This document shows, in pieces, positions 38,568 to 64,000 of a stretch of DNA of 64,000 bases. Origin of the DNA: Anaeromyxobacter dehalogenans 2CP-C (lineage in GTDB: Bacteria > Myxococcota > Myxococcia > Myxococcales > Anaeromyxobacteraceae). The notes below the pieces were generated by a model. That model was not told where the DNA came from and ran no database searches. It saw nothing but the letters and a program-made list of their open reading frames with translations. The position numbers and the translations under genes were made by a program. Position 1 is the stretch's first letter. The number at the start of each line of letters is the position of its first letter. The stretch is taken from the NCBI RefSeq assembly GCF_000013385.1, contig NC_007760.1:3074001-3138000 (forward strand). Reading direction: 5' to 3'.

Positions 38568-40685
38568 ATGCACAGCTGCCCCGCACGCCTTCGGCTCGCG
38601 TTCACCGCCTCCCTGCTCGCCGCGCTCGCGGCGTGTTCCAGCGGAGGGGGTGGCGGATCGGGGCCCGTCGATCCGCCGCCGCCCGCCTGCAGCGAGCTGA
38701 ACGCCGCCTGCAGCACGCCCGCCGACTGCTGCACCGGCCTCACGTGCCTCGGCGGGACCGGCGCAGGCACCTGCGTCACCGTCAGCTCGTGCGTCGCCGA
38801 CGCGCAGGCCTGCAGCGCCGGCGGCGCGCCCTGCTGCGAGGGGCGCTGCGAGGGCGGCGTCTGCACCAAGGGCTCCACCACCTGCGTGGCGGACGGGACG
38901 GCGTGCACCGTGGGCGGCACCGCCTGCTGCTCCGGGACCTGCGCCTCGCCTCCCGGCGGCGGCGCGACGGTCTGCACCACGAGCGAGTTCTGCAAGCCGG
39001 CCGGCGAGGCCTGCACGGCCGCGAGCGACTGCTGCACGCTCAACTGCGTGGACGGCGCCTGTCGCGCCGAGGCGTGCAACCAGATCGGCGAGGGCTGCGC
39101 GACGCCGTCCGACTGCTGCTCCGGCACCGGCTCCTGCGGCACGAACCAGTCCGGCACCTGCACCGCCGTCCCGAGCGGCGGCACCGGCGCCTCCTGCCGC
39201 ACGCTCGGCGAGGCCTGCTCGCAGCCGTACGACTGCTGCTCCACCAACTGCCAGGGTGGCGCCTGCGTCCCGGCGTACACCTGCAACGCGTACGGCGACC
39301 TCTGCTACCAGGGGACCGACTGCTGCTCCGGCCTCTGCGACACCAGCGCCGGCACGCCGGGCCGGTGCTTCGATCCGCCGGGCGGCTGCGTCCAGGGCGG
39401 CAACCCCTGCGACGGCCCGTCCAACTGCTGCTCGCGCCTGTGCGTGGACCCGGGCAGCGGCGCCAAGGTCTGCCAGCCCGCCGGCGGCTGCCGCATGACG
39501 GGCGACTTCTGCGACTCCACCGACGCCTGCTGCAACATCAACGACAAGGTGCCCACGTCCCAGCGGATCTCCTGCGACGCGGAGCACACCTGCGACAACG
39601 GCGGCTCGTGCAACCCGCCGGGCAACATCTGCGGCGCCTCGACCGACGTGAACGCGTCGCAGAACTGCTGCATGCCGAGCACCTGGAACGGCAGCGGCAA
39701 GCCGGCCTGCAAGCCCGACTCGAACAACATCATGCGCTGCTACGGCGCGCCCCCCGGCGAGACCGGCTCCACCTGCCCCACCGGTTACGACGGCAGCGAT
39801 CCGAACTGCTGCATCCCGCAGGGCGACGTCTGCCAGTTCCGCGACCAGTGCTGCGGCCTGGCGCCGTGCGTGCCGGACGCGCAGGGCGTGCTCCGCTGCG
39901 GCGGCTCGTGCATCCCGACCACCGGGACCTGCACCAGCAACGCCGACTGCTGCAGCGGGACCTGCACCTCCGGCAAGTGCGCGCCGGCCGCCTGCGGCGC
40001 GGTGGGCAGCACGTGCAGCACCGACGGCCAGTGCTGCTCCGGCTTCTGCGACGCGGACTCCCACGCCTGCCAGCCGGTGTGCCAGCGGCAGAGCGAGGCC
40101 TGCACCGTCTCCGCGGACTGCTGCTCGGGCCTCTCCTGCGCGGTCCCGCCCGGCGCCACGCACGGCTCCTGCGTCACCGACCAGAGCTCCTGCGTCGATC
40201 TCGGCCAGGCGTGCGGCGCCGGCGACACCTGCTGCTCGGGGCTGTCCTGCACCGGCGGCACCTGCCAGTCGGCCCAGACCTGCGTGGACGTGGGCCAGGG
40301 CTGCACCGCGGGCGGCGCCGCCTGCTGCACCGGCCTCGCGTGCAAGACGCAGGGCACGACCGGGCAGGCGGACTGCGCCGCTGGCGACACCTCCTGCACC
40401 TGCGAGGTCCCGGCGGCCACCTGCGGCCACTACGTCCACGGCCAGCCGCTGCCGTCCTGCTCGCCGACCAACCCCTGCTGCCCCGGCGAGAACACCACCT
40501 GCCTGAGCAACGGGGTGCCGTGCACCAGCGCCACCGGCTGCTTCTGCACGCCGCCGCAGACCTGCGCCGACATCGGCGCGGCGTGCTCGCCGACGCAGAC
40601 CTGCTGCACCGGGACCTGCGCGAAGGCCGGCTCGTTCGACCTCTGCGACGGCACGACCAGCTGCAGCTGCATCAACCCGGGCTAG
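38568..40685 (+). CDS. secreted cysteine-rich repeat lipoprotein
   Basis: A 705-residue protein. The N-terminal signal ends in a lipobox LLAALAAC (Cys near residue 23), then a Gly/Ser/Pro spacer. The rest is an array of about 19 short units centred on a CC pair, such as ADCCTGLTC, SDCCSGTGSC, ADCCSGTC and DTCCSGLSC, usually followed by a GTC or GAC cysteine a few residues on. The spacing resembles knottin or dickkopf-type disulfide-rich modules. It should be a rigid, oxidised cell-surface protein. Its role (adhesion, protection, metal binding) is not known. AGGAG lies 13 bp before the ATG. The array may vary in copy number between strains. Confidence 0.85.
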   Translation: MHSCPARLRLAFTASLLAALAACSSGGGGGSGPVDPPPPACSELNAACSTPADCCTGLTCLGGTGAGTCVTVSSCVADAQACSAGGAPCCEGRCEGGVCTKGSTTCVADGTACTVGGTACCSGTCASPPGGGATVCTTSEFCKPAGEACTAASDCCTLNCVDGACRAEACNQIGEGCATPSDCCSGTGSCGTNQSGTCTAVPSGGTGASCRTLGEACSQPYDCCSTNCQGGACVPAYTCNAYGDLCYQGTDCCSGLCDTSAGTPGRCFDPPGGCVQGGNPCDGPSNCCSRLCVDPGSGAKVCQPAGGCRMTGDFCDSTDACCNINDKVPTSQRISCDAEHTCDNGGSCNPPGNICGASTDVNASQNCCMPSTWNGSGKPACKPDSNNIMRCYGAPPGETGSTCPTGYDGSDPNCCIPQGDVCQFRDQCCGLAPCVPDAQGVLRCGGSCIPTTGTCTSNADCCSGTCTSGKCAPAACGAVGSTCSTDGQCCSGFCDADSHACQPVCQRQSEACTVSADCCSGLSCAVPPGATHGSCVTDQSSCVDLGQACGAGDTCCSGLSCTGGTCQSAQTCVDVGQGCTAGGAACCTGLACKTQGTTGQADCAAGDTSCTCEVPAATCGHYVHGQPLPSCSPTNPCCPGENTTCLSNGVPCTSATGCFCTPPQTCADIGAACSPTQTCCTGTCAKAGSFDLCDGTTSCSCINPG

Positions 40686-49288: not shown

Positions 49289-50701
49289 TCACTGGGCGCC
49301 GCGGGCGCCGAGCACGGCCGGGATGGTCTTCAGGCAGATGCGCACGTCGTTCCAGAGCGACCACTCGTCGATGTACTGGAGGTCGAGCTCCATCCACCGG
49401 TCGAAGTCGATGTCGTTCCGGCCGCTGATCTGCCAGATGCAGGTGATCCCCGGCTTCACCGAGAGGCGGCGCCGCTGCCAGCGCTTGTACTGGCGCACCT
49501 CCGAGGGGAGCGGCGGGCGCGGGCCCACCACGCTCATCTCGCCGCGCAGCACGTTCCAGAACTGCGGGAACTCGTCGAGCGAGGTCCGGCGGATGAACCG
49601 GCCGATGCGCGTCACCCGCGGATCGTTCTTCATCTTGAAGACCGGGCCGGACATCTCGTTGTGCGCGCGGAGCGCCTCGAGCCGCGCCTCCGCGTCCACG
49701 TACATGCTCCGGAACTTGAGGATGTTGAAGACGCGGCCGTGGACGCCCACGCGGCGCTGGCGGAAGAAGATGGGGCCGCGCGAGTCGAGCCGGATGGCGA
49801 TCATGACGCCCAGGAGCAGCGGCGAGAGCAGCAGCAGCACCGCCGCGCTCACCCCGATGTCGAACGCGCGCTTCGCCGCCAGCGCGATCTGGTCGGACGG
49901 CGTGCGCGACAGCGCCAGCATGGGCAGGCCGTCCATGTCGCCGACCGCCATGCGCGAGTAGCCGAACCGGAGCACGTCGAGCGAGATGAGCGCGCCCACG
50001 CCCTGCTCCTCGCAGGTGCGGACCGCGTCCTCCACCGCGCTCAGCCGCTCGCGCGGGACCGCGAACACCACGTCGTCGAGCACGTGGTCCTCGAGGATGC
50101 GGGCCAGGTTGCCCAGGCGGCCCAGGATGACGCAGTCCGGGCTGGCCGCGACCGCGCCCTCCTCGAGCACGTAGCCCGCGAGCCGCATGCCCCACTCCGG
50201 GTGCGCGCGGATCGTCTCGATGATCTCCTCCGCCACGTCGCCCGAGCCGACGACCGCGTAGTAGCGGACCCGCCCGGCGCGCGTGCCCGCGGCGCGCGCC
50301 ACCGCGCGGTGCACGGAGCGCGCGATGGCGAGCAGCGGGAACGCCACCGCGAAGTACAGCACCGCGAGCAGCCGCGACACCGACTCCTGCTCCTTCGCCA
50401 GGAACACGAGCGTGAACATCACCAGCGCGACCGCCATGAGCGCGCGGGCGATGCGCCGGAGATCGTCGGAGAGCGAGCCCGGGCCCGCCTCGTACACCTG
50501 GTAGATCCAGGCGCCGGCCGACCACAGCAGCATCACGACGACGAGCGCGAGCCAGTAGCGATCGAGCGAGACCGCCTCGAGCGCATCCGGACGGAAGAGC
50601 TCCCGGTAGATCTCGAACGCGAGCGGCAGCGCGAGCGCGAGCGCCGCGAGATCGATGAGACGCACCGCTGCGTCCCCCGACCGTGACTTATGGTGAAACA
50701 T
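49289..50701 (-). CDS. polyprenyl-phosphate sugar-1-phosphate transferase (WbaP/WcaJ type)
   Basis: A 470-residue initiating enzyme that transfers a hexose 1-phosphate to undecaprenyl phosphate. About four N-terminal membrane helices (residues 13-130) are followed by a CoA-binding-like domain (YYAVVGSGDVAEEII). The C-terminal catalytic domain has a membrane hairpin and IFFRQRRVGVHGRVFNILKF, DEFPQFWNVLRGEMSVVGPR and KPGITCIWQISGRNDI. The ATG has GGGGGGAGTTCC upstream. It is divergent from the OPX gene across about 520 bp. Confidence 0.95.
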   Translation of the reverse strand: MFHHKSRSGDAAVRLIDLAALALALPLAFEIYRELFRPDALEAVSLDRYWLALVVVMLLWSAGAWIYQVYEAGPGSLSDDLRRIARALMAVALVMFTLVFLAKEQESVSRLLAVLYFAVAFPLLAIARSVHRAVARAAGTRAGRVRYYAVVGSGDVAEEIIETIRAHPEWGMRLAGYVLEEGAVAASPDCVILGRLGNLARILEDHVLDDVVFAVPRERLSAVEDAVRTCEEQGVGALISLDVLRFGYSRMAVGDMDGLPMLALSRTPSDQIALAAKRAFDIGVSAAVLLLLSPLLLGVMIAIRLDSRGPIFFRQRRVGVHGRVFNILKFRSMYVDAEARLEALRAHNEMSGPVFKMKNDPRVTRIGRFIRRTSLDEFPQFWNVLRGEMSVVGPRPPLPSEVRQYKRWQRRRLSVKPGITCIWQISGRNDIDFDRWMELDLQYIDEWSLWNDVRICLKTIPAVLGARGAQ

Positions 50702-51223: not shown

Positions 51224-51856
51224 ATGTCCGACCAGCTTGCCGCCTCCGGGCGCGTCCTCTCGCGCGGCGTCCTCGCGCTGGCCGCCGTACTCTCCTCCGC
51301 GTGTGGCCCGACCGGGCGTTACATCCGCGCCGAGGACCTCCCGCCGGCGCAGGCCGACGCCGACTACCGCGTCGCGCGGGGTGACGTCCTCGGGGTGCGC
51401 GTCTGGAACCAGGAGAACATGTCGGTCGAGCAGGCGCGCGTCCGCGAGGACGGGCGCATCTCGATGCCGTTCCTGCAGGACGTGAACGCCGCGGGCCAGA
51501 CGCCCGCCGAGCTGGCGCAGCGGATCCAGGCGCAGCTCAAGACCTACGTCGTCAACCCCGTGGTCACCGTCACCGTGGTCGAGATGCAGCCGCTGCGCGT
51601 CTCCGTGACCGGCGAGGTGATGCGGCCCGGCCTCTACGACCTGGAGCGCGGCGCCGGGGTCCTGTCGGCGCTGGCCGCGGCCGGGAGCTTCACCGAGTTC
51701 GCCCACCGGGACCGTGTCTTCGTCCTGCGGCACGCGGCCGCCCCGGGCGATGCCGCGGTCACGCGCATCCGCTTCCGGTACGAGGCGCTGATCCAGGCCG
51801 AGCGGCGCTCCGCCGCGTTCCGGCTGCAGCCCGGCGACGTGGTCGTGGTGGAGTGA
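51224..51856 (+). CDS. short OPX (Wza-like) polysaccharide export lipoprotein
   Basis: A 210-residue export protein. The signal peptide ends in a lipobox LSSAC (Cys27). The polysaccharide export (PES) domain covers about 46-118 (YRVARGDVLGVRVWNQENMS, then EDGRISMPFLQDVNAAGQTP). A single SLBB-like domain follows (VSVTGEVMRPGLYDLE to the end). E. coli Wza is about 380 residues and ends in an amphipathic helix that spans the outer membrane. That part is missing here, so the protein should need a separate pore. Myxobacterial OPX proteins of this short class work with a beta-barrel porin, and such a gene overlaps this one. The ATG is chosen; a GTG three codons upstream is possible. Confidence 0.9.
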   Translation: MSDQLAASGRVLSRGVLALAAVLSSACGPTGRYIRAEDLPPAQADADYRVARGDVLGVRVWNQENMSVEQARVREDGRISMPFLQDVNAAGQTPAELAQRIQAQLKTYVVNPVVTVTVVEMQPLRVSVTGEVMRPGLYDLERGAGVLSALAAAGSFTEFAHRDRVFVLRHAAAPGDAAVTRIRFRYEALIQAERRSAAFRLQPGDVVVVE

Positions 51857-53142
51857 CGGTGACGGGCGCCGCCGCCCTCGCGCTCGCGTCGCTGCTGCTC
51901 GGCGCGGGCGAGCTGCGCGTGGACTCCGGCGTCCGGATCGAGGGGCTCGCGCGGCAGTTCTCGCCGGAGCACGGCCGGGACGACCGGGCGCTCGACGGCG
52001 TCGTGGCGCCGCGCGCCGGGCTCGACTGGCGGGCGGCCCCGGAGCTGCGCCTGTGGGCGACGTACGTCCCGCGGCTGCGCGCGCCGGACCTGACCCGCTC
52101 CGTCGATCTCGTGGTGCTGCACACGGGCGTGCTTCGCGCCGAGATCCGCCCGGACCCCGCCTGGCGGCTGGCGGCCCGCGCCGGCGGCGAGCGCGGGACC
52201 ACCGACCTCGTCACCGAGAGCCGAGCCACCGGCGTCGAGCTCCAGACCATCACCACCCTGCGCCGGCTGCGCTACCGGGCCGCCCGGGCCGACGTCGAGC
52301 TGGAGCGGCTGCCCGGCCGCCGCGCGCAGGCGCAGCGCCTCGCGGGCGAGGGGCTCCTCCAGGCGCTGCACCTGGCCATCCACCCCCCGGTCCTCCCGGA
52401 TCTCCGGCTGGCCTTCGGCGCCTTCGTGGACGGCGGCGAGGGGGCCGCGGCGGAGGCGCTGCTGCCCCTCGAGCGCGGCGTCCGCGCCGAGGCGACCGCC
52501 GGCTGGTCCGTGACGCGCCTCGATCGCGTGGGCTTCCGCCTGGCCGCGGTCGGCACGCGCATCGAGCGAGGCATGACCTCGGCGATCGCCACCGCCGACG
52601 CGCTGTGGCGGCGCCGCCTCACGCGCGAGCTGGACGGCTGGGCCGGCGCGGGCGCGGCGGGCGTCCACGAGGATCCTCCGGGCGGGACCGCCAGCACCCG
52701 GGCGTTCCCCAGCGCCGAGCTCGGCCTCGCGCGGCTGCCGTCGGCAGGCGCCGGGGTGGAGGACGCCGAGGCGTCCGCGGGCCGGCCCAGCTTCCTGTCG
52801 GCGGTCGCGACGCTCGCCGTGCTGCGCCTCGCGCCCGCGGTCGATCGCGCCACCGGCGAGGCCAACCCGGAGCTGGAGGGGACGCTGAGCGCCGGCTGGC
52901 TGGCGACGCCGCGGTGGTCGCTCTCGCTGGCGGGCATGGGCGCGGTCGTGCGAGACGGCGGCGAGAACACGCGCCGCTGGCGCATCGAGGCGCGGACGTC
53001 CTGGACGCCGGTCCCGACCGTCCAGCTCTCGGTGGGCGTCTACGGCCTGCGGCAGCGGACGCCCATGCCCGACGTGCCGTCCTTCGACGAGTGGGGCGCG
53101 TTCCTCGCGCTCGAGCTCGACCCGCCGAGCTGGAGCCCCTGA
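51853..53142 (+). CDS. outer-membrane beta-barrel protein, probable OPX partner porin
   Basis: A 429-residue protein. After a short hydrophobic N-terminus (GAAALALASLLLGAGELRV) it shows many alternating hydrophobic/polar strands (LRLWATYVPRL, RLAARAGGERG, GVRAEATAGWSV, WSLSLAGMGAVV) and a C-terminal FLALELDPPSW, as in outer-membrane barrels. Strand count was not determined. The GTG overlaps the OPX stop (GTGA). The short OPX next to a barrel gene matches the OPX-Wzp arrangement described in Myxococcus, where the barrel provides the outer-membrane pore. No clear family motif is visible, so the call depends on pattern and context. Confidence 0.7.
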   Translation: MTVTGAAALALASLLLGAGELRVDSGVRIEGLARQFSPEHGRDDRALDGVVAPRAGLDWRAAPELRLWATYVPRLRAPDLTRSVDLVVLHTGVLRAEIRPDPAWRLAARAGGERGTTDLVTESRATGVELQTITTLRRLRYRAARADVELERLPGRRAQAQRLAGEGLLQALHLAIHPPVLPDLRLAFGAFVDGGEGAAAEALLPLERGVRAEATAGWSVTRLDRVGFRLAAVGTRIERGMTSAIATADALWRRRLTRELDGWAGAGAAGVHEDPPGGTASTRAFPSAELGLARLPSAGAGVEDAEASAGRPSFLSAVATLAVLRLAPAVDRATGEANPELEGTLSAGWLATPRWSLSLAGMGAVVRDGGENTRRWRIEARTSWTPVPTVQLSVGVYGLRQRTPMPDVPSFDEWGAFLALELDPPSWSP

Positions 53143-53152
53143 GGCGCAGCGT

Positions 53153-54022
53153 CTAGGGGGCGGTGCCGGCGCGCGGGGACGGGGCCCGATCGGTCGCGTC
53201 CGCCAGCCAGGGCCGGCGGCCCTCGCGATCGGCGGCAGGCTGGCGCGCGGTGCGCGCCACGATGGCGAGGAAGCGCGGGTCCTTCACGAGGTAGCGGTGC
53301 GCCAGCCGCCGCGGCTCCTGCGAGAGCCGGAACAGCCACTCGAGCCCGCCGCGCGACACCCAGCGCGGCGCGCGCCGCACCCGGCCCGCCAGGAAGTCGA
53401 TGGACGCCCCCAGGCCGAGGGCGACCGCCGGTCCGAGGTGCGGCAGCGAGCGCTGGATGAACCGCTCCTGCTTCGGCGCGCCGAGCCCGACGACCACGAG
53501 CTGCGCGTCCGCGCGCCGCACGCGCTCGAGGATGCCGCGCTCGCCCGTGTCGCCCTCCACCGCCACGCGAGGCGCGTCCACGCCGGCGACGACGACGCCC
53601 AGCTCGCGCTCGAGCCGGGCTGCGGCGAGCTCGGCCGAGCCCGGGGCACCTCCGAGCAGGTACACGCGCCACCGCGCAGCGCCCGCGTGCTGCATCAGCG
53701 GCCACACCAGGTCGGAGCCCGACACCTTCTCCGGTACCGGGGTCCCGAGCAGCCGCATCGCCCAGACGAGCGCCTGGCCGTCTGCCAGCGAGAGGCTCGC
53801 CTCCGCGTAGGCCGAGCGGAACGCGCCGTCGTCCTCCGCGGTCACGACGTGGTCCACGTTCGGCGTGAACACGCTCCCGCCCGCGCCCGCGCGCACCAGG
53901 GCGCCGATGCGCTCGATGGCCTCGGCCATGGTGAGCGCGTCCAGCCAGAGCTGCCCGATGCGAACCCGGCGATTGCCCGACCCGGGTGTGCCGGCGAGCG
54001 CGTGCGACGCGGTTGGCTCCAC
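53153..54022 (-). CDS. WecG/TagA/CpsF family glycosyltransferase (GT26)
   Basis: A 289-residue enzyme. NVDHVVTAEDDGAFRSAYAEAS, LADGQALVWAMRLLGTPVPEKVSGSDL and GAPKQERFIQR are the family's hallmarks. Members add ManNAc or ManNAcA to a lipid-linked acceptor, and WecB, encoded nearby, makes the matching UDP-ManNAc. The GTG at 54022 has AGGGGGAACC just upstream and gives the normal length; the frame stays open further but overlaps the opposite gene. It is convergent with the beta-barrel gene, with 10 bp between stops. Confidence 0.92.
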   Translation of the reverse strand: MEPTASHALAGTPGSGNRRVRIGQLWLDALTMAEAIERIGALVRAGAGGSVFTPNVDHVVTAEDDGAFRSAYAEASLSLADGQALVWAMRLLGTPVPEKVSGSDLVWPLMQHAGAARWRVYLLGGAPGSAELAAARLERELGVVVAGVDAPRVAVEGDTGERGILERVRRADAQLVVVGLGAPKQERFIQRSLPHLGPAVALGLGASIDFLAGRVRRAPRWVSRGGLEWLFRLSQEPRRLAHRYLVKDPRFLAIVARTARQPAADREGRRPWLADATDRAPSPRAGTAP

Positions 54023-54161
54023 GGTTCCCCCTTGCCGACCACGCGCAGCATCTGCGGGTCTCTCCGCTGCGTCAAGCGGGCTCGGGACATCGCGCACGCG
54101 GCGCGCCGCGCTGCCCCGTGCTACGCTTCCTGGGTGCGCCGCGCCGGCGCCCGGGGGGTCG

Positions 54162-54659
54162 ATGTCGGAGACAGAGTTGCCCGAGCTCGCGCAGAGGATG
54201 GGGCACCGCGTGCTCCTCCCCGAGGCGCCGCCCAGCAAGGAGTGCCAGCAGCTCTGGTTCATGCTGGCGCGGTCTCGCTGGCGCTCCATCGCGCTCATCC
54301 CCGCGGACGAAGGGATCTCCACCGCGCAGCTCGCGGCGTCGCTCGCCGAGGTGGGCCGGCAGCTGCGCGAGGGCGCGGTGACGGCCCTCAACCTGCCTCA
54401 TCTCGACTACATCACCGCGTCCGGCATCGCCGACGCGATCTCGGCCGCCGGGCGCGGCGAGGGCGTGCCGGAGGACCTCCAGATCATCGTGGCCATCCCG
54501 CCGGTGCTCGACGACCCGCTCGGCGTCGCCGTGGCGCACGCCGTGGACGCGGCCGTCCTGTGCGTCGAGCTGGGCAAGGTGCGCCTGAGCGCGGCGCGCC
54601 GGACCATCGAGCTGGTGGGCCGCGAGCGCTTCCTCGGCAGCATCGTGCGCCGCACCTGA
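54162..54659 (+). CDS. degenerate BY-kinase-like (CpsD/Wzc C-domain) protein without Walker A
   Basis: A 165-residue protein. The order of secondary elements follows bacterial tyrosine kinases of exopolysaccharide synthesis. The P-loop strand and loop appear as SIALIPADEGISTAQLAASL (about 42-61), where active enzymes have GEGKST. DLQIIVAIPPVLDDPLGVAVAHAVDAAVL (split here: Walker B-like IIVAIPP near 108-114) and a C-terminal GRERFLGSIVRR follow. The catalytic lysine of Walker A is absent and there is no tyrosine cluster at the end. It is therefore likely an inactive regulator or adaptor. It stands alone on the plus strand between two minus-strand genes of the locus. Confidence 0.7.
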   Translation: MSETELPELAQRMGHRVLLPEAPPSKECQQLWFMLARSRWRSIALIPADEGISTAQLAASLAEVGRQLREGAVTALNLPHLDYITASGIADAISAAGRGEGVPEDLQIIVAIPPVLDDPLGVAVAHAVDAAVLCVELGKVRLSAARRTIELVGRERFLGSIVRRT

Positions 54660-54673
54660 GCCGCCCCGCGCGC

Positions 54674-56065
54674 TCAGGTCCCGCGCGCGGCCCCGGCGCG
54701 GACGAAGCGCATGGCGAACCACAGCGTCCACCCGAAGTGGAGCGCGTACGCGAGGAGGCGCCCGGTCGCGAGGCCCAGGGAGCCCCAGCCGACGAGCAGC
54801 ACCGTCGCCACCAGGAACGCCGCCGCCCAGCCCGAGTTCATGAGGAACCCGAGCCAGAGGCGCTCGGAGGCGGCGAGGACGTAGCCGACCGGGTTGGTGA
54901 TGGCGACGATGCCCGCGGTGATCAGGACGACCGCGAACGTCGGCCACGCGTCGGCGAACTGCGGACCGTAGATCCGCACCAGCCACGGGCTCGCCAGACA
55001 GCCCGCGGCCACGATGGGGATGACGGCGGCCGCGTTCATCGCCACCGCGGCCCGGAGCACCGCGCGCACCCCCGGGCCGTCCCCGCGGCCGACCCGCTCC
55101 GAGAGCACCGGCAGCACGGGCCCGCACAGCGCGTTGGGCAGGAACAGCACCGCCGCGTACCACTGGTTGGCGGCCGAGAACGCGCCCATCTCCGGGTAGC
55201 CGCCGGGCTGGTTCACCAGGATCGCCGCGGCCGCCCAGCTCACCGGCCCCACCATGACGCCCTGGGCGAGCGCCGGGAGCGAGAACGTCCACAGGATGCG
55301 CTGCTCGCGCCACCAGCCCCTCGGCGACACCGGCACGCGATCGCGGCGCGCGTGGACGCGGACCGCCACGTGCGTCAGCGCCCACTGCAGCGCCGCCGTG
55401 ACCACCGTGGCCCAGACCGCGCCCTGGAGCCCCCAGCGCCAGACCCCGACCACGGCGATGGGGACGCCCAGCAGCCCGAGCCACACGTTCAGCTGGGTCT
55501 GGGTCCGAAACGCCTCGAAGCCGGCGAGCGCACCGGTCTGTGCGCCGCCCATGGTCGTGAACACCAGCCCCAGGCCGGCGATGCGCAGCGGCTCGGTGAG
55601 GTGCGGGGCGCCGATGGTGCTCGACGCGAGCCACGGCGCGAACGCCCACAGCAGCGCGGCGGCGAGCACGCCGGTGGCCGCGCTGAGCACCGCGGACATG
55701 CCCAGGATCCGCCCGGCGCGCTCGGGGTCCTTCGTCCGCAGCTCCGAGACGTACTTCGTGGCGGTCATGCCGAGGCCCAGGCTCGCGAACGCCTGGAACG
55801 TGAGCAGCGTCGAGAGCAGCACCCCGAGCTCGCCGTACTGCGCCTTGCCGAGGAACCGGGCCGTGACGACCGACGCCGCGAGGGCGAACGCCCGCGAGAG
55901 CGCGCTGCCGGCGAACGACCAGAACGCCCCCTCGGCGAGCCGGGTCGCCAGGTGCGAACCCTCGATGCGCTCCGCGAGCCGGCGGACCGGGGCTGGCATC
56001 CCGGGCGCGCAGGAGAGGCGCCGGAGCAGGCTCGGCCTCGCGACGCCCTCGAGCATCTCGTCCAC
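54674..56065 (-). CDS. Wzx-type polysaccharide flippase
   Basis: A 463-residue MATE/PST-type transporter with about 12-14 hydrophobic helices. TRLAEGAFWSFAGSALSRAF, TARFLGKAQYGELGVLLS and LGLGMTATKYVSEL are typical of the Wzx first helices. It should flip the undecaprenyl-linked repeat unit to the periplasm. The GTG at 56065 lies 17 bp after the wecB stop; the ATG at 56056 is an alternative. It is convergent with the degenerate kinase gene, with 14 bp between stops. Confidence 0.9.
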   Translation of the reverse strand: MDEMLEGVARPSLLRRLSCAPGMPAPVRRLAERIEGSHLATRLAEGAFWSFAGSALSRAFALAASVVTARFLGKAQYGELGVLLSTLLTFQAFASLGLGMTATKYVSELRTKDPERAGRILGMSAVLSAATGVLAAALLWAFAPWLASSTIGAPHLTEPLRIAGLGLVFTTMGGAQTGALAGFEAFRTQTQLNVWLGLLGVPIAVVGVWRWGLQGAVWATVVTAALQWALTHVAVRVHARRDRVPVSPRGWWREQRILWTFSLPALAQGVMVGPVSWAAAAILVNQPGGYPEMGAFSAANQWYAAVLFLPNALCGPVLPVLSERVGRGDGPGVRAVLRAAVAMNAAAVIPIVAAGCLASPWLVRIYGPQFADAWPTFAVVLITAGIVAITNPVGYVLAASERLWLGFLMNSGWAAAFLVATVLLVGWGSLGLATGRLLAYALHFGWTLWFAMRFVRAGAARGT

Positions 56066-56082
56066 GCGCCCCCCCGGCCGGC

Positions 56083-57216
56083 TCAGCTCGACCGCGCGCC
56101 CAGCGCCGCCGCGATGCGCTCGCTCGCGTGACCGTCGCCGTACACGTCCACCACCCGCGCCATCTGCCGGTACGCCGCCTGGTCGGTGGCGAGCCGCACG
56201 CACCACTCCTGGATGGCGGCGCGGCTCGTCCCGACCAGCCGCGACACGCCCGCGTCCACGCTCTCGCGGCGCTCCGTCACCTCGCGCATCACCAGCACCG
56301 GCTTGCCGAGCGCGGCCGCCTCCTCCTGGATCCCGCCGGAGTCGGTGAGGATGAACCGGCAGCGCTGCGCGAGCCAGATGAGCTCGGGGTAGCCGACCGG
56401 CGCGCCGAGGTGGACGTTGGGCGCCGTCCCGAGCACCTCGAAGACCGGCTTGCGGACGTTCGGGTTGAGGTGCACCGGGTAGACGAACTGCAGGTCCTGA
56501 TCGCGGGCCACGTCGCGGATGGCGTGGCAGAGGTCCTCGAAGGGCTTGCCGAAGCTCTCCCGGCGGTGCCCGGTGACGAGCACGAAGTCGCGATCCGCGC
56601 GCAGCCCGGGGAACGCGCTCGCCACGGAGCGGGCGACGGCCTCGTCACCCTTCATCCGCTCGACGCCGGCGTGGAGCGCGTCGATGACGGTGTTGCCGAC
56701 GACGTGGATCCGATCCGGCGCCACGCGCTCGGCCAGGAGGTTGTCGCGCGCCGTCGCGGTCGGGCAGAAGTGGAGGTCGGTGACCGCCGAGATCATCACC
56801 CGGTTCACCTCCTCCGGGTACGGCTTGAAGCGATCGAAGCTGCGCAGGCCGGCCTCCACGTGCGCGACCCGCACGCGGCGGTGGAAGGACGCGAGCGCGG
56901 CGCAGAACGCGGTGGTCGTGTCGCCCTGCACGATGGTCCAGTCGGGCGCGAACGAGGTCAGCACACCGTCGAGGCCGACCAGCGCCCGGGACGCGAGGCC
57001 GCTGAGCGACTGATCGGGCCGCATCACGTCGAGGTCGCTGTCCACCCGCAGGTCGAAGAACGACAGGATGCTCGTCACCATCTCGCGGTGCTGCCCGGTG
57101 AAGCACACGTGCGTGGTGGCGGCGGGCAGGCGCCGGAGCTCCCGGATCACCGGCGCGAGCTTGATGGCCTCGGGCCGGGTGCCCATCACGACAAGCAGCT
57201 TGAGGTCTCGTGTCAC
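56083..57216 (-). CDS. wecB: UDP-N-acetylglucosamine 2-epimerase (non-hydrolysing)
   Basis: A 377-residue WecB that makes UDP-ManNAc from UDP-GlcNAc. LLVVMGTRPEAIKLAPVI, TGQHREM, VQGDTTTAF, HVEAGLRSFDRFKPYPEEVNR split over the active site, VLVTGHRRESFGKPFED and DSGGIQEEA are all canonical. The GTG at 57216 fits the usual N-terminus; a GTG four codons upstream touches its own GAGAAGG site. It pairs with wzx in a two-gene minus-strand unit and supplies sugar for the WecG-like enzyme. Confidence 0.95.
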   Translation of the reverse strand: MTRDLKLLVVMGTRPEAIKLAPVIRELRRLPAATTHVCFTGQHREMVTSILSFFDLRVDSDLDVMRPDQSLSGLASRALVGLDGVLTSFAPDWTIVQGDTTTAFCAALASFHRRVRVAHVEAGLRSFDRFKPYPEEVNRVMISAVTDLHFCPTATARDNLLAERVAPDRIHVVGNTVIDALHAGVERMKGDEAVARSVASAFPGLRADRDFVLVTGHRRESFGKPFEDLCHAIRDVARDQDLQFVYPVHLNPNVRKPVFEVLGTAPNVHLGAPVGYPELIWLAQRCRFILTDSGGIQEEAAALGKPVLVMREVTERRESVDAGVSRLVGTSRAAIQEWCVRLATDQAAYRQMARVVDVYGDGHASERIAAALGARSS

Positions 57217-58788: not shown

Positions 58789-61700
58789 CTACGGCGTGCC
58801 GGCGTCGAACCGCGCCTTCGCCGGGAGGACCGCCACCTTCGTGCTGCCCGCGGGATCCACCCACGGCCACGGGCTCGAGCCGAAGAACGCCGGCTTGGCG
58901 GCGAGGTACAGGGAGTCCGGCAGCGTCGTGGCCGGGGCCACGTCGAGCTGGTTGCGGACGTAGTCCCAGTTCCCGGCCCGCAGCATCATCGACGCGGTGC
59001 TGCCGGGCGCCGTCGGGCTCTCGTACGTGGAGATGTCGTCGTACCCGCTCCCCGCCCCGACCCCGTGGCCGAGCCGGAACACCGCCGGCCGGCCCTGGCC
59101 GGGAGGATTGCTCGTCACCTCGTACGCCATGGTCGTGCCGTTCAGCCCCACGGGACCGGGGGTGCCGAGGACGTTCCCGACCACGTTCATGTACATGGCC
59201 TTCACCTCCATGGCGATGGCGGCGATCTGGTAGGTCTCGAACGCGTCGGTGCGCTCCTGCTTCCCGCTGGCGTAGTTGCGGAACAGCGTCATCCAGCCGG
59301 AGTTGCCCCACACGTTCTCGGTGGCGATCTGCGGCGAGTAGTTCCCCTCGGCCAGCTCCATGTAGGGGAAGGACGCGTGCCCGAGGTCCAGCGTCGTCTC
59401 CTGCAGGCCGCGGTCGGCGCTGGTCCAGGCGTCGTCGATGTAGTTGTAGGCGATCACGTTGCCGCCGCCGCTCGCGCGCAGCGTCACCGGCTTGTTCATG
59501 TAGTAGACGATGTTGTTCTCGACGAGCGTGTCGCTGGTGTGCTCGGACAGCGAGATCCCGTACGCTCCGCCGCCCTGCACCACGCGCGTCGCGTGGTGGA
59601 AGTACGAGTCGCGGATCTCGTTCCGGAAGCTCCGCTCGACCAGCAGGTGCGCGCCGCGCATCCCGTTCCCCTGGCCGAGCGTCCCGTCCGCGGCCGGGTT
59701 GGCCGAGACCGTGCCGTCCGACTCGACGCCCTTCACCCAGCAGTACGCGGTGTCCATCATGTGGATCTGGTTGTTCTGCCCGCCGGTGACGTACAGGTCC
59801 TCGATCCCCGCGTACTTCACGGTCACCGGCGCCTTGAACACCTGCGCCGCGAACGCCACGTCGAAGCCGAGGTGGATCTGCGGCCGGATCGTGAGCAGGT
59901 TGCCGCTCTTCCCGGTCACCTCCACCGTCTGCCCCATCGAGCGCGGCCCCGAGGTCGCGGGCCCGTAGTCCGGCCGCTTGAAGTACTGCACGCCGCCGTA
60001 GAACAGGTAGGACGGATCGTCGAGCTGGTCGATCTGGACGATGTCGCCCACCGCGAAGCTGCTCGCGTCGGCCACCGGGATCGTGGTCGCGCCCTTCGGC
60101 ACGTCCGCGGTCACGTTCACCGCGGCGGCCCAGGTCGGCCAGCCGCGCCACACGTAGATGACGGCGGTGCTGCTCAGGTACGCGCGCAGCCGGGTCTGCG
60201 TCTTCCCCGCCCCGCGCAGCGTGACGCCCTTCGTGATCTGCAGGTAGGAGTTGAGCCGGTAGGTGCCGGCCGGCAGGTAGACGACCTGCCCCTCCGCGCA
60301 CCCGTTGACGGCGGCCTGGATGGCCGGCTGCGCGTCGCCGCTGCCGTCCGTCCCGAACGCCGCCAGCCCGCGCGACGACGCCCACGCCGGCGTCACGGTC
60401 GCGCAGATCGTCGTCCGCGCGGGCACGCCCCCGGGGACGCCCGGCGCCCACGTCGTCCGCCGCTCGGGCGGGATCGGATCGCCCGCGATCCCGCTGGGCG
60501 GCGGATCCACCACGGTCGGCGACGAGACGGTGACCGCCGCGGCAGCGCTGCGGCTCGGATCGGCGGCGCTGGTGGCCACCACGTGGTAGGTGCCCGCGGT
60601 CGCAGGCGCGGTGTAGAGGCCCGACGCCGTGACGGTGCCGCCGGCGGCGCCCTCCTGCACCGACCAGGTCACGGCGGTGTTGGTGGAGCCCGACACGGTG
60701 GCGGTGAACTGCGCGCTGCCCCCTGCCGTCACCGCCGCGCTGCTCGGGCCGATCGCGACGGCGACCGGCGCGGGGGCGGGCGTGGAGCCCGAGGACGTCG
60801 TGACCCCGAGGTCGTCGAAGTAGAGCGTCGGGAGGCTGAGCCCGCGCCACTCCTGGACCGCGACCCCGGTGATGGCCGCGCCCGCCGGCGCGAGCGCCGA
60901 CATCGGGACGGCGCAGGCCACCCAGGCGTTCGCGGGCACGGCGCCGCCCTGGCAGTACGGGCCGAGATCCGCGCCGTCGGTCCAGGCGCCGTTCACCACC
61001 GCGCGGACCCGGAGCGCCGCGCCGGCGCCGCCGGCTCCGCCGTTCACGTAGAGGCGCAGCGAGCTGCCGGTGTCCGGCGCGAAGGCGGCGCGGCTGAAGT
61101 AGATCCCCTCCCAGGGCCCGAACTGCACCGAGATGGCCCGCGTGCCGCTCGCCACCGGAGCGGTGCTCGCCAGCGAGTACACGCCGGCCCACGACCAGTC
61201 GGCCCAGGGGCTCACCATCGCGTCCGAGTAGATCGGCTGCGCGGGCGTGCTCGTGGGGGCCGGCACGGTCGCGCTCACCGCGGTGGACCGGGGCCCCTCG
61301 CCCGCGGCGCCGATCGCCGACACCGTGTACCAGTACGTCGAGCCCGCGACGACCGCGGTGTCGGTGTACGCGGCGGCGGTGACCGGCGCCGGCGTGAGGT
61401 TGGTCTCGGCGCCGGTCTGGGTGGCGGAGCGGTAGACCTCGTAGCCGGTCGCGCCGCTCACCGGCGCCCAGGAGACCGCGACGCCGGCGGTGGTCGCGGC
61501 CGCCGCCACGCCCGTCGGGGCGGCCGGGAGCGCCGGGGTGGGATCCGGCGTCGTGGTGGCGGTCCCCTCGAAGGACACGTCGTCCACGTACATGCGGGCC
61601 TGGCTCTTGCCCGCGTCCTCGGCGATGACGATCCCGTCGATGGTCGCGTCCACGGCGCCGATGGCGGCGAGCGGGACGGCGCAGCGGACCCACGCGTTCT

Positions 61701-62136
61701 TCGGGATCCTGCCGCCGTCGCAGTAGGGGGCGAGCGCGGCCTCGGGCGTCGGCACGCCGCCGATGCTGGCGCGGACCGCCAGCGCCCGGCGGGCGCCGCT
61801 CGCGCCGCCGTTCACGTACAGCGTCAGCTCGGTGAGCCCCGCGGTGCTCAGGCCCGCCGTCTGGAAGCGCAGGTCGCTCCAGGGCGCGAAGTCCACCGCG
61901 ATCGAGCTCGCGCCGGAGTGGACCGGCGTCGCGTTCGAGAGGTCGTGCGGGGCCGACGACTGGTCGCTCCACTCGGCGCCGAGCGCGTCGGCGTACACGG
62001 CCGCGCCGGGCGCCAGGGCGGCGCTCGCGGCGCCGAGGGAGCCCGCCGGCTGCTCCCCGCCGCAGGCGGTGGCGAGCAGCACGGCGGCCAGGAGTGCGGC
62101 GGCACATCGGGTTCCGGGGACGGCGCGTCTGGGCAT
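58789..62136 (-). CDS. secreted multidomain lipoprotein with a parallel beta-helix (pectate-lyase-like) domain
   Basis: A 1115-residue protein. The signal ends in LLATAC (Cys25), a lipobox. Two related beta-sandwich modules (about 45-190 and 302-445, each with LYVNGGA, a PYC.GG and VDD/FDDL motif) look like carbohydrate-binding domains. A fibronectin type III domain lies between (about 200-298). An Ig-like domain follows (about 452-538, ITVTAGGSAQFTATVSGST-like). The C-terminal 525 residues form a right-handed beta-helix of the pectate-lyase superfamily (AAVNGCAEGQVVYLPAGTYR, GITLRGAGKTQT-like, EHTSDTLVENNIVYY). It probably cuts or modifies an extracellular polysaccharide; catalytic residues could not be assigned. 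The ATG at 62136 is chosen because of the signal. Confidence 0.85.
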   Translation of the reverse strand: MPRRAVPGTRCAAALLAAVLLATACGGEQPAGSLGAASAALAPGAAVYADALGAEWSDQSSAPHDLSNATPVHSGASSIAVDFAPWSDLRFQTAGLSTAGLTELTLYVNGGASGARRALAVRASIGGVPTPEAALAPYCDGGRIPKNAWVRCAVPLAAIGAVDATIDGIVIAEDAGKSQARMYVDDVSFEGTATTTPDPTPALPAAPTGVAAAATTAGVAVSWAPVSGATGYEVYRSATQTGAETNLTPAPVTAAAYTDTAVVAGSTYWYTVSAIGAAGEGPRSTAVSATVPAPTSTPAQPIYSDAMVSPWADWSWAGVYSLASTAPVASGTRAISVQFGPWEGIYFSRAAFAPDTGSSLRLYVNGGAGGAGAALRVRAVVNGAWTDGADLGPYCQGGAVPANAWVACAVPMSALAPAGAAITGVAVQEWRGLSLPTLYFDDLGVTTSSGSTPAPAPVAVAIGPSSAAVTAGGSAQFTATVSGSTNTAVTWSVQEGAAGGTVTASGLYTAPATAGTYHVVATSAADPSRSAAAAVTVSSPTVVDPPPSGIAGDPIPPERRTTWAPGVPGGVPARTTICATVTPAWASSRGLAAFGTDGSGDAQPAIQAAVNGCAEGQVVYLPAGTYRLNSYLQITKGVTLRGAGKTQTRLRAYLSSTAVIYVWRGWPTWAAAVNVTADVPKGATTIPVADASSFAVGDIVQIDQLDDPSYLFYGGVQYFKRPDYGPATSGPRSMGQTVEVTGKSGNLLTIRPQIHLGFDVAFAAQVFKAPVTVKYAGIEDLYVTGGQNNQIHMMDTAYCWVKGVESDGTVSANPAADGTLGQGNGMRGAHLLVERSFRNEIRDSYFHHATRVVQGGGAYGISLSEHTSDTLVENNIVYYMNKPVTLRASGGGNVIAYNYIDDAWTSADRGLQETTLDLGHASFPYMELAEGNYSPQIATENVWGNSGWMTLFRNYASGKQERTDAFETYQIAAIAMEVKAMYMNVVGNVLGTPGPVGLNGTTMAYEVTSNPPGQGRPAVFRLGHGVGAGSGYDDISTYESPTAPGSTASMMLRAGNWDYVRNQLDVAPATTLPDSLYLAAKPAFFGSSPWPWVDPAGSTKVAVLPAKARFDAGTP

Positions 62137-62502
62137 TTTACTCTCAGTGACCAGGGTGGTGCGGCGCCGTCGCCGGGCGGAGCGCGCGCGGGGGTTCGCG
62201 CTGGCGGGCGACCGGGCGGGCGCTCGCCAGCGCTCGGAGTGGCTGGGAACGGCCGGACCCCAGTGCGATCCGCGTGCCACCAGGGGCGTTGCGCGCGCGC
62301 CCCCCGCGTTTCGCGCGATCGCGATCCAGGCCGATCCGCGGTCGCGGACGGAGCGTGCGCGTCACGATCGCGGAAATTCGCCGCACCTCACGGATCTTCG
62401 AGGTGAGCGACGCGGCGCGGATCGCCTACATGCGCCGCGATCGTACGCGCTCAAACGACCTCGCGAGCGCGACCCGCGGACGGCGATCGCCGGACGCGAA
62501 AC
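62137..62502. other. gap between the two beta-helix protein genes
   Basis: No gene is seen; the open frames here are Arg-rich and look spurious. It must hold the promoter of the upstream-lying gene that starts at 62136 on the minus strand, but no clear -35/-10 was recognised. GAGAG lies four bases before that ATG. GCGATCG-type words recur several times. Confidence 0.4.
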
Positions 62503-62560: not shown

Positions 62561-64000
62561 CTACGGCGTGCCGGCGTCGAACCGCGCCTTCGCCGGGAGG
62601 ACCGCCACCTTCGTGCTGCCCGCGGGATCCACCCACGGCCACGGGTTCGACCCGAAGAACGCCGGCTTCGCGACCCGGTACAGCGACGCGGGCAGCTCCT
62701 CGCCCGGATCGGCGTCGAGCTGGTTCCGGACGTAGTCCCAGTTCCCGGCCCGCAGCATCATCGCCGCGGTGCTGCCAGGGGCCGTCGGGCTCTCGTACGT
62801 CGCGATGTCGTCGTACCCGCTCCCCGCCCCGACCCCGTGGCCGAGCCGGAACACCGCCGGCTGCCGCTGGCCGGGCGGGCTGCTGGTCACCTCGTACGCC
62901 ATGGGCGTGCCGTTCAGGCCCACCGGGCCGGCGGTGCCGAGCACGTTGCCGACCACGTTCATGTACATGGCCCTCACCTCCATGGCGATGGCGGCGAGCT
63001 GGTACGTCTCGAACGCGTCGGACCGCGCCTGCTTGCCGCTGGCGTAGTTGCGGAACAGCGTCATCCAGCCGGAGTTGCCCCACACGTTCTCGGTGGCGAT
63101 CTGCGGCGAGTAGTTCCCCTCCGCGAGCTCCATGTACGGGAAGGAGGCGTGGCCCAGGTCGAGCGTGGTCTCCTGCATCCCGCGGTCGGCGCTGGTCCAG
63201 GCGTCGTCGATGTAGTTGTAGGCGATCACGTTGCCGCCGCCGCTCGCGCGCAGCGTCACCGGCTTGTTCATGTAGTAGACGATGTTGTTCTCGACGAGCG
63301 TGTCGCTGGTGTGCTCGGACAGCGAGATCCCGTACGCCCCGCCGCCCTGCACCACGCGCGTCGCGTGGTGGAAGTACGAGTCGCGGATCTCGTTCCGGAA
63401 GCTCCGCTCGACGAGCACGTGCGCGCCGCGCATGCCGTTCCCCTGGCCGAGCGTCCCGTCCGACGCCGGGTTCGAGGAGACGGTCCCGTCCGACTCGATC
63501 CCCTTCAGCCAGCAGTACGCCGAGTCCATCATGTGGATCTGGTTGTTCTGGCCGCCGGTGACGTACAGGTCCTCGACGCCGGCGTACTTGACCGTCACCG
63601 GCGCCTTGAACACCTGCGGCGTGAACGCCACGTCGAACCCGAGGTGGATCTGCGGCCGGATGGTGAGCACGTTGCCCACCTTCCCGGTGACCTCCACCGT
63701 CTGCCCCATCGAGCGCGGGCCCGTGGTCGCCGGCCCGTAGCTGGGGCGCTTGAAGTACTGCACGCCGCCGTAGAACAGGTAGGACGGATCGTCGAGCTGG
63801 TCGATCTGGACGATGTCACCCACCGCGAAGCTGCTCGCGTCGGACACCGGGATCGTGGTCGCGCCCTTCGCCACGTCCGCGGTCACGTTCACCGCCGCCG
63901 GCCAGTTCGGCCAGCTGCGCCAGACGTAGATCACGGCGGTGCTGGCCAGGTACGCGCGCAGCCGGGTCTGCGTCTTCCCCGCGCCGCGCAGGGTGATGCC
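62561..64000 (-). CDS. second beta-helix (pectate-lyase-like) protein, 5' end outside window
   Basis: The visible 479 residues match the C-terminal domain of the protein at 58789 along the whole length, roughly nine residues in ten by eye, with the same end ARFDAGTP. The first visible residues are GITLRGAGKTQT, the start of the beta-helix. Differences are scattered or clustered (for example AVNVTADV before AKG or PKG), and long stretches of DNA are almost identical. The upstream N-terminal modules lie beyond the window. It is a tandem paralogue, recently duplicated or kept similar by gene conversion. Confidence 0.87.
   Translation of the reverse strand, partial: GITLRGAGKTQTRLRAYLASTAVIYVWRSWPNWPAAVNVTADVAKGATTIPVSDASSFAVGDIVQIDQLDDPSYLFYGGVQYFKRPSYGPATTGPRSMGQTVEVTGKVGNVLTIRPQIHLGFDVAFTPQVFKAPVTVKYAGVEDLYVTGGQNNQIHMMDSAYCWLKGIESDGTVSSNPASDGTLGQGNGMRGAHVLVERSFRNEIRDSYFHHATRVVQGGGAYGISLSEHTSDTLVENNIVYYMNKPVTLRASGGGNVIAYNYIDDAWTSADRGMQETTLDLGHASFPYMELAEGNYSPQIATENVWGNSGWMTLFRNYASGKQARSDAFETYQLAAIAMEVRAMYMNVVGNVLGTAGPVGLNGTPMAYEVTSSPPGQRQPAVFRLGHGVGAGSGYDDIATYESPTAPGSTAAMMLRAGNWDYVRNQLDADPGEELPASLYRVAKPAFFGSNPWPWVDPAGSTKVAVLPAKARFDAGTP

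Follow-up and report, generated by a model that had tools for sequence, protein, structure and literature searches.

The window analysed here is a 64,000-nucleotide stretch of the Anaeromyxobacter dehalogenans 2CP-C genome, bases 3,074,001-3,138,000 of its single 5,013,479-base contig. Two genes stand alone on the plus strand amid minus-strand polysaccharide genes, and the observation that they comprise a short OPX gene with a barrel gene downstream was confirmed. Their features, in window coordinates, are as follows.

51224..51856, plus strand: short OPX gene of the EpsY type (Class 3, or D1D2-OPX), 210 aa plus stop, assigned by Pfam, NCBIfam, a clade profile, AlphaFold2 and a tree
51302..51304, plus strand: codon for Cys27, where lipidation is likely, invariant in 11 sequences (alignment A1), with a signal helix at residues 11-25 of the model
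51350..51577, plus strand: Poly_export (PES) domain, D1 (Pfam PF02563, E 7.7e-25)
51599..51850, plus strand: single SLBB (beta-grasp) domain, D2, where the OPX protein ends (Pfam PF10531 and PF22461)
51853..51856, plus strand: GTGA shared by the barrel start and the OPX stop, read from the sequence, with a second in-frame GTG at 51859
51853..53142, plus strand: EpsX-type gene for a predicted 18-stranded outer-membrane beta-barrel, 429 aa (NCBIfam EpsX, AlphaFold2, AlgE match)

The first-pass annotation had the barrel gene overlap the OPX gene by GTGA. The shared bases are present and the overlap is likely, but the second GTG, 2 nt past the OPX stop, is an equally possible start for the barrel, and both candidate starts (51853 and 51859) are kept in two close relatives. 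An overlap this tight would be expected to couple translation of the two proteins. The OPX frame begins with ATG; an alternative GTG nine bases upstream (51215) would give 213 aa.

The OPX protein had been described as 210 residues long, stopping after one SLBB-like domain and lacking the C-terminal helix of Wza, and both statements held. Pfam returned one SLBB match (E 5e-11), with SLBB_2 running to residue 212 of 213, and its scan of the region C-terminal to SLBB found no further domain. The clade profile agrees, leaving zero residues beyond D2 in the window OPX compared with 124 extra in a long OPX encoded elsewhere in the genome. The C-terminal Wza_C helix by which Class 1 (Wza-type) OPX proteins are recognized is absent from the window OPX. 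Likewise, the model that AlphaFold2 built from 20 sequences (mean pLDDT 84.6) contains only D1 and D2, and its final element is a beta strand, with no C-terminal helix. The best match among solved structures is 9n9a, the crystal structure of the Class-3 OPX WzaB of Myxococcus xanthus, released in January 2026. In the published Myxococcus system the OPX is a lipoprotein carrying a type 2 signal peptide. Here Cys27 follows a hydrophobic helix, but its box (LSSAC) is an imperfect lipobox, so lipoprotein status is only putative.

The downstream gene, previously called a likely beta-barrel, has a predicted fold that bears this out. Modelled singly (AlphaFold2, 21 homologues), the frame at 51853-53142 folds as a barrel of 18 strands, with a mean pLDDT of 86.3 and a pTM of 0.80. 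The barrel profile had no match by sequence among solved structures, and its fold was therefore compared by structure. AlgE is the best match (Z 20.2 over 313 residues), its entries taking the first eight places (Z 19.4-20.2); the OprD/Occ porins score 19.3 or less, which is within a tie. With OprD/Occ almost equal to AlgE, the modelled fold by itself does not prove polymer export. FadL came first by Foldseek E-value and was rejected as the nearest structure: its alignments have an rmsd of 26-28 A, and VIA-align puts AlgE first.

The comparison with Myxococcus barrels that had been proposed as a check gave an end-to-end alignment, the NCBIfam EpsX model covering barrel residues 21-421 (E 2.8e-7). 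This frame is the only match to the model in the genome. Against the equivalog models the barrel scores 29.6 bits for EpsX (NF041842; curated cut-off 550 bits), and the OPX scores 251 bits over its full length for EpsY (NF041843; cut-off 320 bits). Both scores fall below their cut-offs, and identity of function with Myxococcus EpsY/EpsX is to that extent not certified by sequence. Among named relatives, the nearest found was Anaeromyxobacter sp. PSR-1, whose OPX is 82 per cent identical to that of the window; identity to M. xanthus EpsY is about 51 per cent. For the barrel the figures are 61 per cent and about 24 per cent (to EpsX). By identity to M. xanthus (24 versus 51 per cent), the barrel is evolving faster than the OPX. 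The barrel had been expected to be divergent in sequence, which is true of its identity to EpsX, yet the curated EpsX model still recognizes it.

The genes surrounding the pair, all on the minus strand, include the following; the last two lie beyond the window and are given in genome coordinates.

49289..50701, minus strand: EpsZ-like polyisoprenyl-phosphate hexose-1-phosphate transferase (NCBIfam EpsZ, E 1.6e-105), divergent from the pair
53153..54391, minus strand: EpsA-like WecG/TagA glycosyltransferase (NCBIfam EpsA, E 3.6e-79, residues 129-381), convergent with the pair; this frame probably begins upstream of the true start
54674..56206, minus strand: Wzx-like flippase (Pfam Polysacc_synt, E 2.1e-15); here too the true start probably lies within the frame
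about 3,139,860-3,141,372, minus strand: Wzy_EPS homologue (E 8e-99)
3,151,259-3,152,716, minus strand: homologue of the co-polymerase EpsV (E 5e-76)

Both of the latter are within 26 kb of the pair. On these profile matches, the surroundings are a complete EPS-type Wzx/Wzy set. No Wzz domain lies close to the two genes, which had raised the possibility of a cluster without a co-polymerase; we rejected this when a search for EpsV located a co-polymerase 24 kb away that the Pfam models had missed. Adjoining the EPS genes, minus-strand frames at 58789-62280 and 62561-63934 of the window encode pectate-lyase-like or beta-helix proteins, possible polysaccharide-modifying enzymes. Elsewhere in the window, a plus-strand frame of 705 aa (38568-40685) has low GC1, high GC2 and only a chance-level family match; it could encode a cysteine-rich protein of the cell surface, or else be spurious.

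A maximum-likelihood tree places the window OPX and M. xanthus EpsY in one clade (22 rows, support 100/100), with the genome's long OPX and a second short OPX both outside it. Judged by the tree and the profile matches, the pair is the Anaeromyxobacter counterpart, by orthology, of Myxococcus EpsY/EpsX. Across 145 genomes of the class, a barrel matching the EpsX profile lies directly downstream of 112 of the 120 EpsY-clade OPX genes. Counted by genome, 111 have both, two have the barrel only and one apparently has the OPX only. When the exceptions were read singly, this OPX-only case (G129) proved to have a barrel, raising the count to 113/120, and one gene (contig C362 of G121) was cut by a contig end. 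Six EpsY-clade OPX genes have no adjacent barrel. Many of the genomes are related by descent, and the Fisher value for the pairing therefore overstates its independence; the correlation between OPX and barrel distances (mirror tree, r 0.96) is also mostly shared ancestry and carries little weight. At the loci read, adjacent OPX and barrel genes are, with few exceptions, separated by -4 to +8 nt. Taken as comparative sequence evidence, these counts indicate that the short OPX and the barrel are conserved and co-inherited.

The genus itself shows a related pattern. Four of the five Anaeromyxobacter genomes with the pair carry a clear EpsV, and the fifth (G003) has only a trace match; none of the four genomes without the pair has a convincing EpsV, though one of these is only 66 per cent complete. 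Anaeromyxobacter oryzae Red232 contains two separate EpsY/EpsX pairs (L113 and L138), the second of which is close to the A. oryzisoli pair (L140) in OPX and barrel alike.

We consider it very probable that the two genes supply a Wzx/Wzy-type exopolysaccharide pathway with its outer-membrane step and work, like their M. xanthus orthologues EpsY and EpsX, as a composite translocon. The OPX would be exported as a probable lipoprotein, its D1 and D2 domains would build a periplasmic ring, and this ring would take the polymer handed over by an EpsV-type co-polymerase. Since such an OPX would be unable to cross the outer membrane, the 18-stranded barrel atop the ring would supply the membrane channel. 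We infer from work on Myxococcus that the two proteins form a complex, that the OPX makes a ring and that the polymer passes through: in M. xanthus, EpsX is required for EPS, and EpsX and EpsY interact and stabilize each other (Schwabe et al. 2022, PMC9601211). That the short OPX works with a separate barrel as in Myxococcus, the central proposal of the first-pass annotation, is supported by the anatomy of the OPX, the predicted barrel fold and the conserved, co-inherited pair.

Several relatives (G062, G066, G118, G121, G122) have extra EpsY-type OPX copies with no barrel next door. One could picture the Anaeromyxobacter pair as having turned into a stand-alone two-gene export module. A single barrel might then be shared by two different OPX rings, or the coupled barrel gene, with its GTG start, might yield barrel subunits in a different amount from ring subunits; we regard this as an unlikely extension. 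The EpsY-clade OPX genes that lack a neighbouring barrel are L051:4910-6061, L053:6358-7155, L083:2284-2907, L088:6007-6591, L067:5700-6284 and L081:531-1178. All of their genomes have an EpsX-type barrel elsewhere, and several of them carry the orphan OPX as an additional copy.

Instead of capping an OPX ring, the barrel could be a separate porin or surface anchor belonging to the same cluster (Wzi-like or OprD-type), with the polymer leaving via a long Wza-type OPX. The near-equal structural match to OprD/Occ porins would suit such a role, and the genome does encode a long OPX at 4,914,657 (L042:9037-10548, minus strand, about 4.914 Mb), with two SLBB domains and the only Wza_C helix found in the genome. 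A long membrane-spanning OPX serving the locus is also what the first-pass annotation had named as speaking against its own proposal. This protein, however, is 1.8 Mb from the pair and adjoins its own Wzz-domain protein. It is also retained in three sister genomes (G004, G005 and G008) that have no EpsY-clade OPX, no EpsX barrel and no convincing EpsV. Its location and its presence in genomes without the pair make another role for it most likely. The joint inheritance of the short OPX and the barrel, and the need for the EpsX orthologue in EPS production together with its binding to EpsY (PMC9601211), also argue against a separate porin, which we consider improbable. The long OPX with its Wza_C helix also differs from the account in PMC9601211, where all 48 identified myxobacterial OPX proteins are described without an outer-membrane domain; PMC9603273 counts 26 Class 1 OPX proteins in myxobacteria.

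It is less probable still that the short OPX is a truncated, Wza-like remnant and the pair non-functional. Its lack of the third domain and helix of Wza is what a truncation would leave, but throughout the clade its C terminus, typically GDVVVVE, is conserved, the family is found in 112/145 genomes of the class, and both frames are open and well conserved. In addition, the homologous WzaB of M. xanthus was crystallized as a Class-3 OPX.

The local DNA is 75 per cent GC, where long spurious frames are common and frame length alone is no proof of a gene. Although several long frames overlap here (e.g. one of 344 aa at 51634-52668 on the minus strand), the idea that the downstream frame is a high-GC artefact can practically be dismissed given the coding-type composition of both genes (GC3 0.96-0.97 versus GC2 0.49-0.60), the protein identity of the barrel in PSR-1, its EpsX family match and its confident 18-strand model.

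The genome holds another short OPX at 2,999,755, with a barrel-like neighbour (OMP_b-brl) and a co-polymerase. This second pair (L041:8330-10421, minus strand, genome about 2,998,330-3,000,420) has an OPX of a non-EpsY clade and a barrel that the EpsX model misses; a Wzz-type co-polymerase, an EpsB_2-type sugar transferase and a sigma-54 regulator lie near it.

Reading the window pair as a composite translocon carries an export mechanism already in the literature over to a lineage whose barrel is only about 24 per cent identical to that of M. xanthus; the orthology is clear, and the pairing has been counted at genome scale. The pair looks self-contained and may suit structural work. The general picture of how polysaccharides exit Gram-negative cells is unchanged.

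Among known systems, Wza of E. coli (a Class 1 OPX) has D1 and D2 domains homologous to those of the window OPX, but also a third domain and an outer-membrane-spanning C-terminal helix, neither of which the window OPX has. AlgE of Pseudomonas aeruginosa is the closest solved barrel, at a sequence identity of only 10 per cent. It acts in a pathway of the synthase-dependent kind and is not known to have an OPX partner. For M. xanthus EpsX, too, AlgE is the closest structural homologue (Schwabe et al., PMC9601211), and thus the nearest solved structure is the same for both barrels. VpsN/VpsM of Vibrio cholerae, a short OPX coupled to a barrel according to PMC9601211, can be likened to the pair by description only.

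The composite OPX/beta-barrel translocon of M. xanthus, along with its orthologues in myxobacteria, was described in 2022, with a barrel gene syntenic with 41/48 myxobacterial D1D2-OPX genes (PMC9601211); the corresponding figure in the Class 3 OPX paper of the same year is 115/162 (PMC9603273). Both papers cover myxobacteria broadly, and their main texts do not name this strain. The window pair shows several of the published traits of the translocon: an OPX of D1 and D2 without the helix, a coupled barrel within the range of 16-18 strands, pathway genes including a co-polymerase, and a barrel structurally closest to AlgE, though with OprD/Occ within a tie. The system is therefore already known in kind, and the two-part exporter first proposed for this locus is right, not new. 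Within M. xanthus, WzaB/WzpB and ExoA/ExoB also combine a short OPX with an 18-stranded barrel, but belong to other OPX clades; the second short OPX of our genome falls on the WzaB/ExoA side of the tree, not with EpsY. The closest counterpart is EpsY/EpsX (MXAN_7417/MXAN_7418; WzaX plus barrel), in which a D1D2-only OPX, about 210 aa long, likewise comes immediately before an 18-stranded barrel (about 415-430 aa) and the pathway genes EpsZ, Wzx, EpsV, Wzy and EpsA are shared. The two loci differ in layout. The gap between epsY and epsX is 3 nt in M. xanthus, whereas the genes here overlap or nearly touch; and a Myxococcus relative has epsZ-wzx-epsY-epsX-epsW-epsV on one strand, whereas the Anaeromyxobacter pair runs opposite to its neighbours, with EpsV encoded on the minus strand about 24 kb further downstream.
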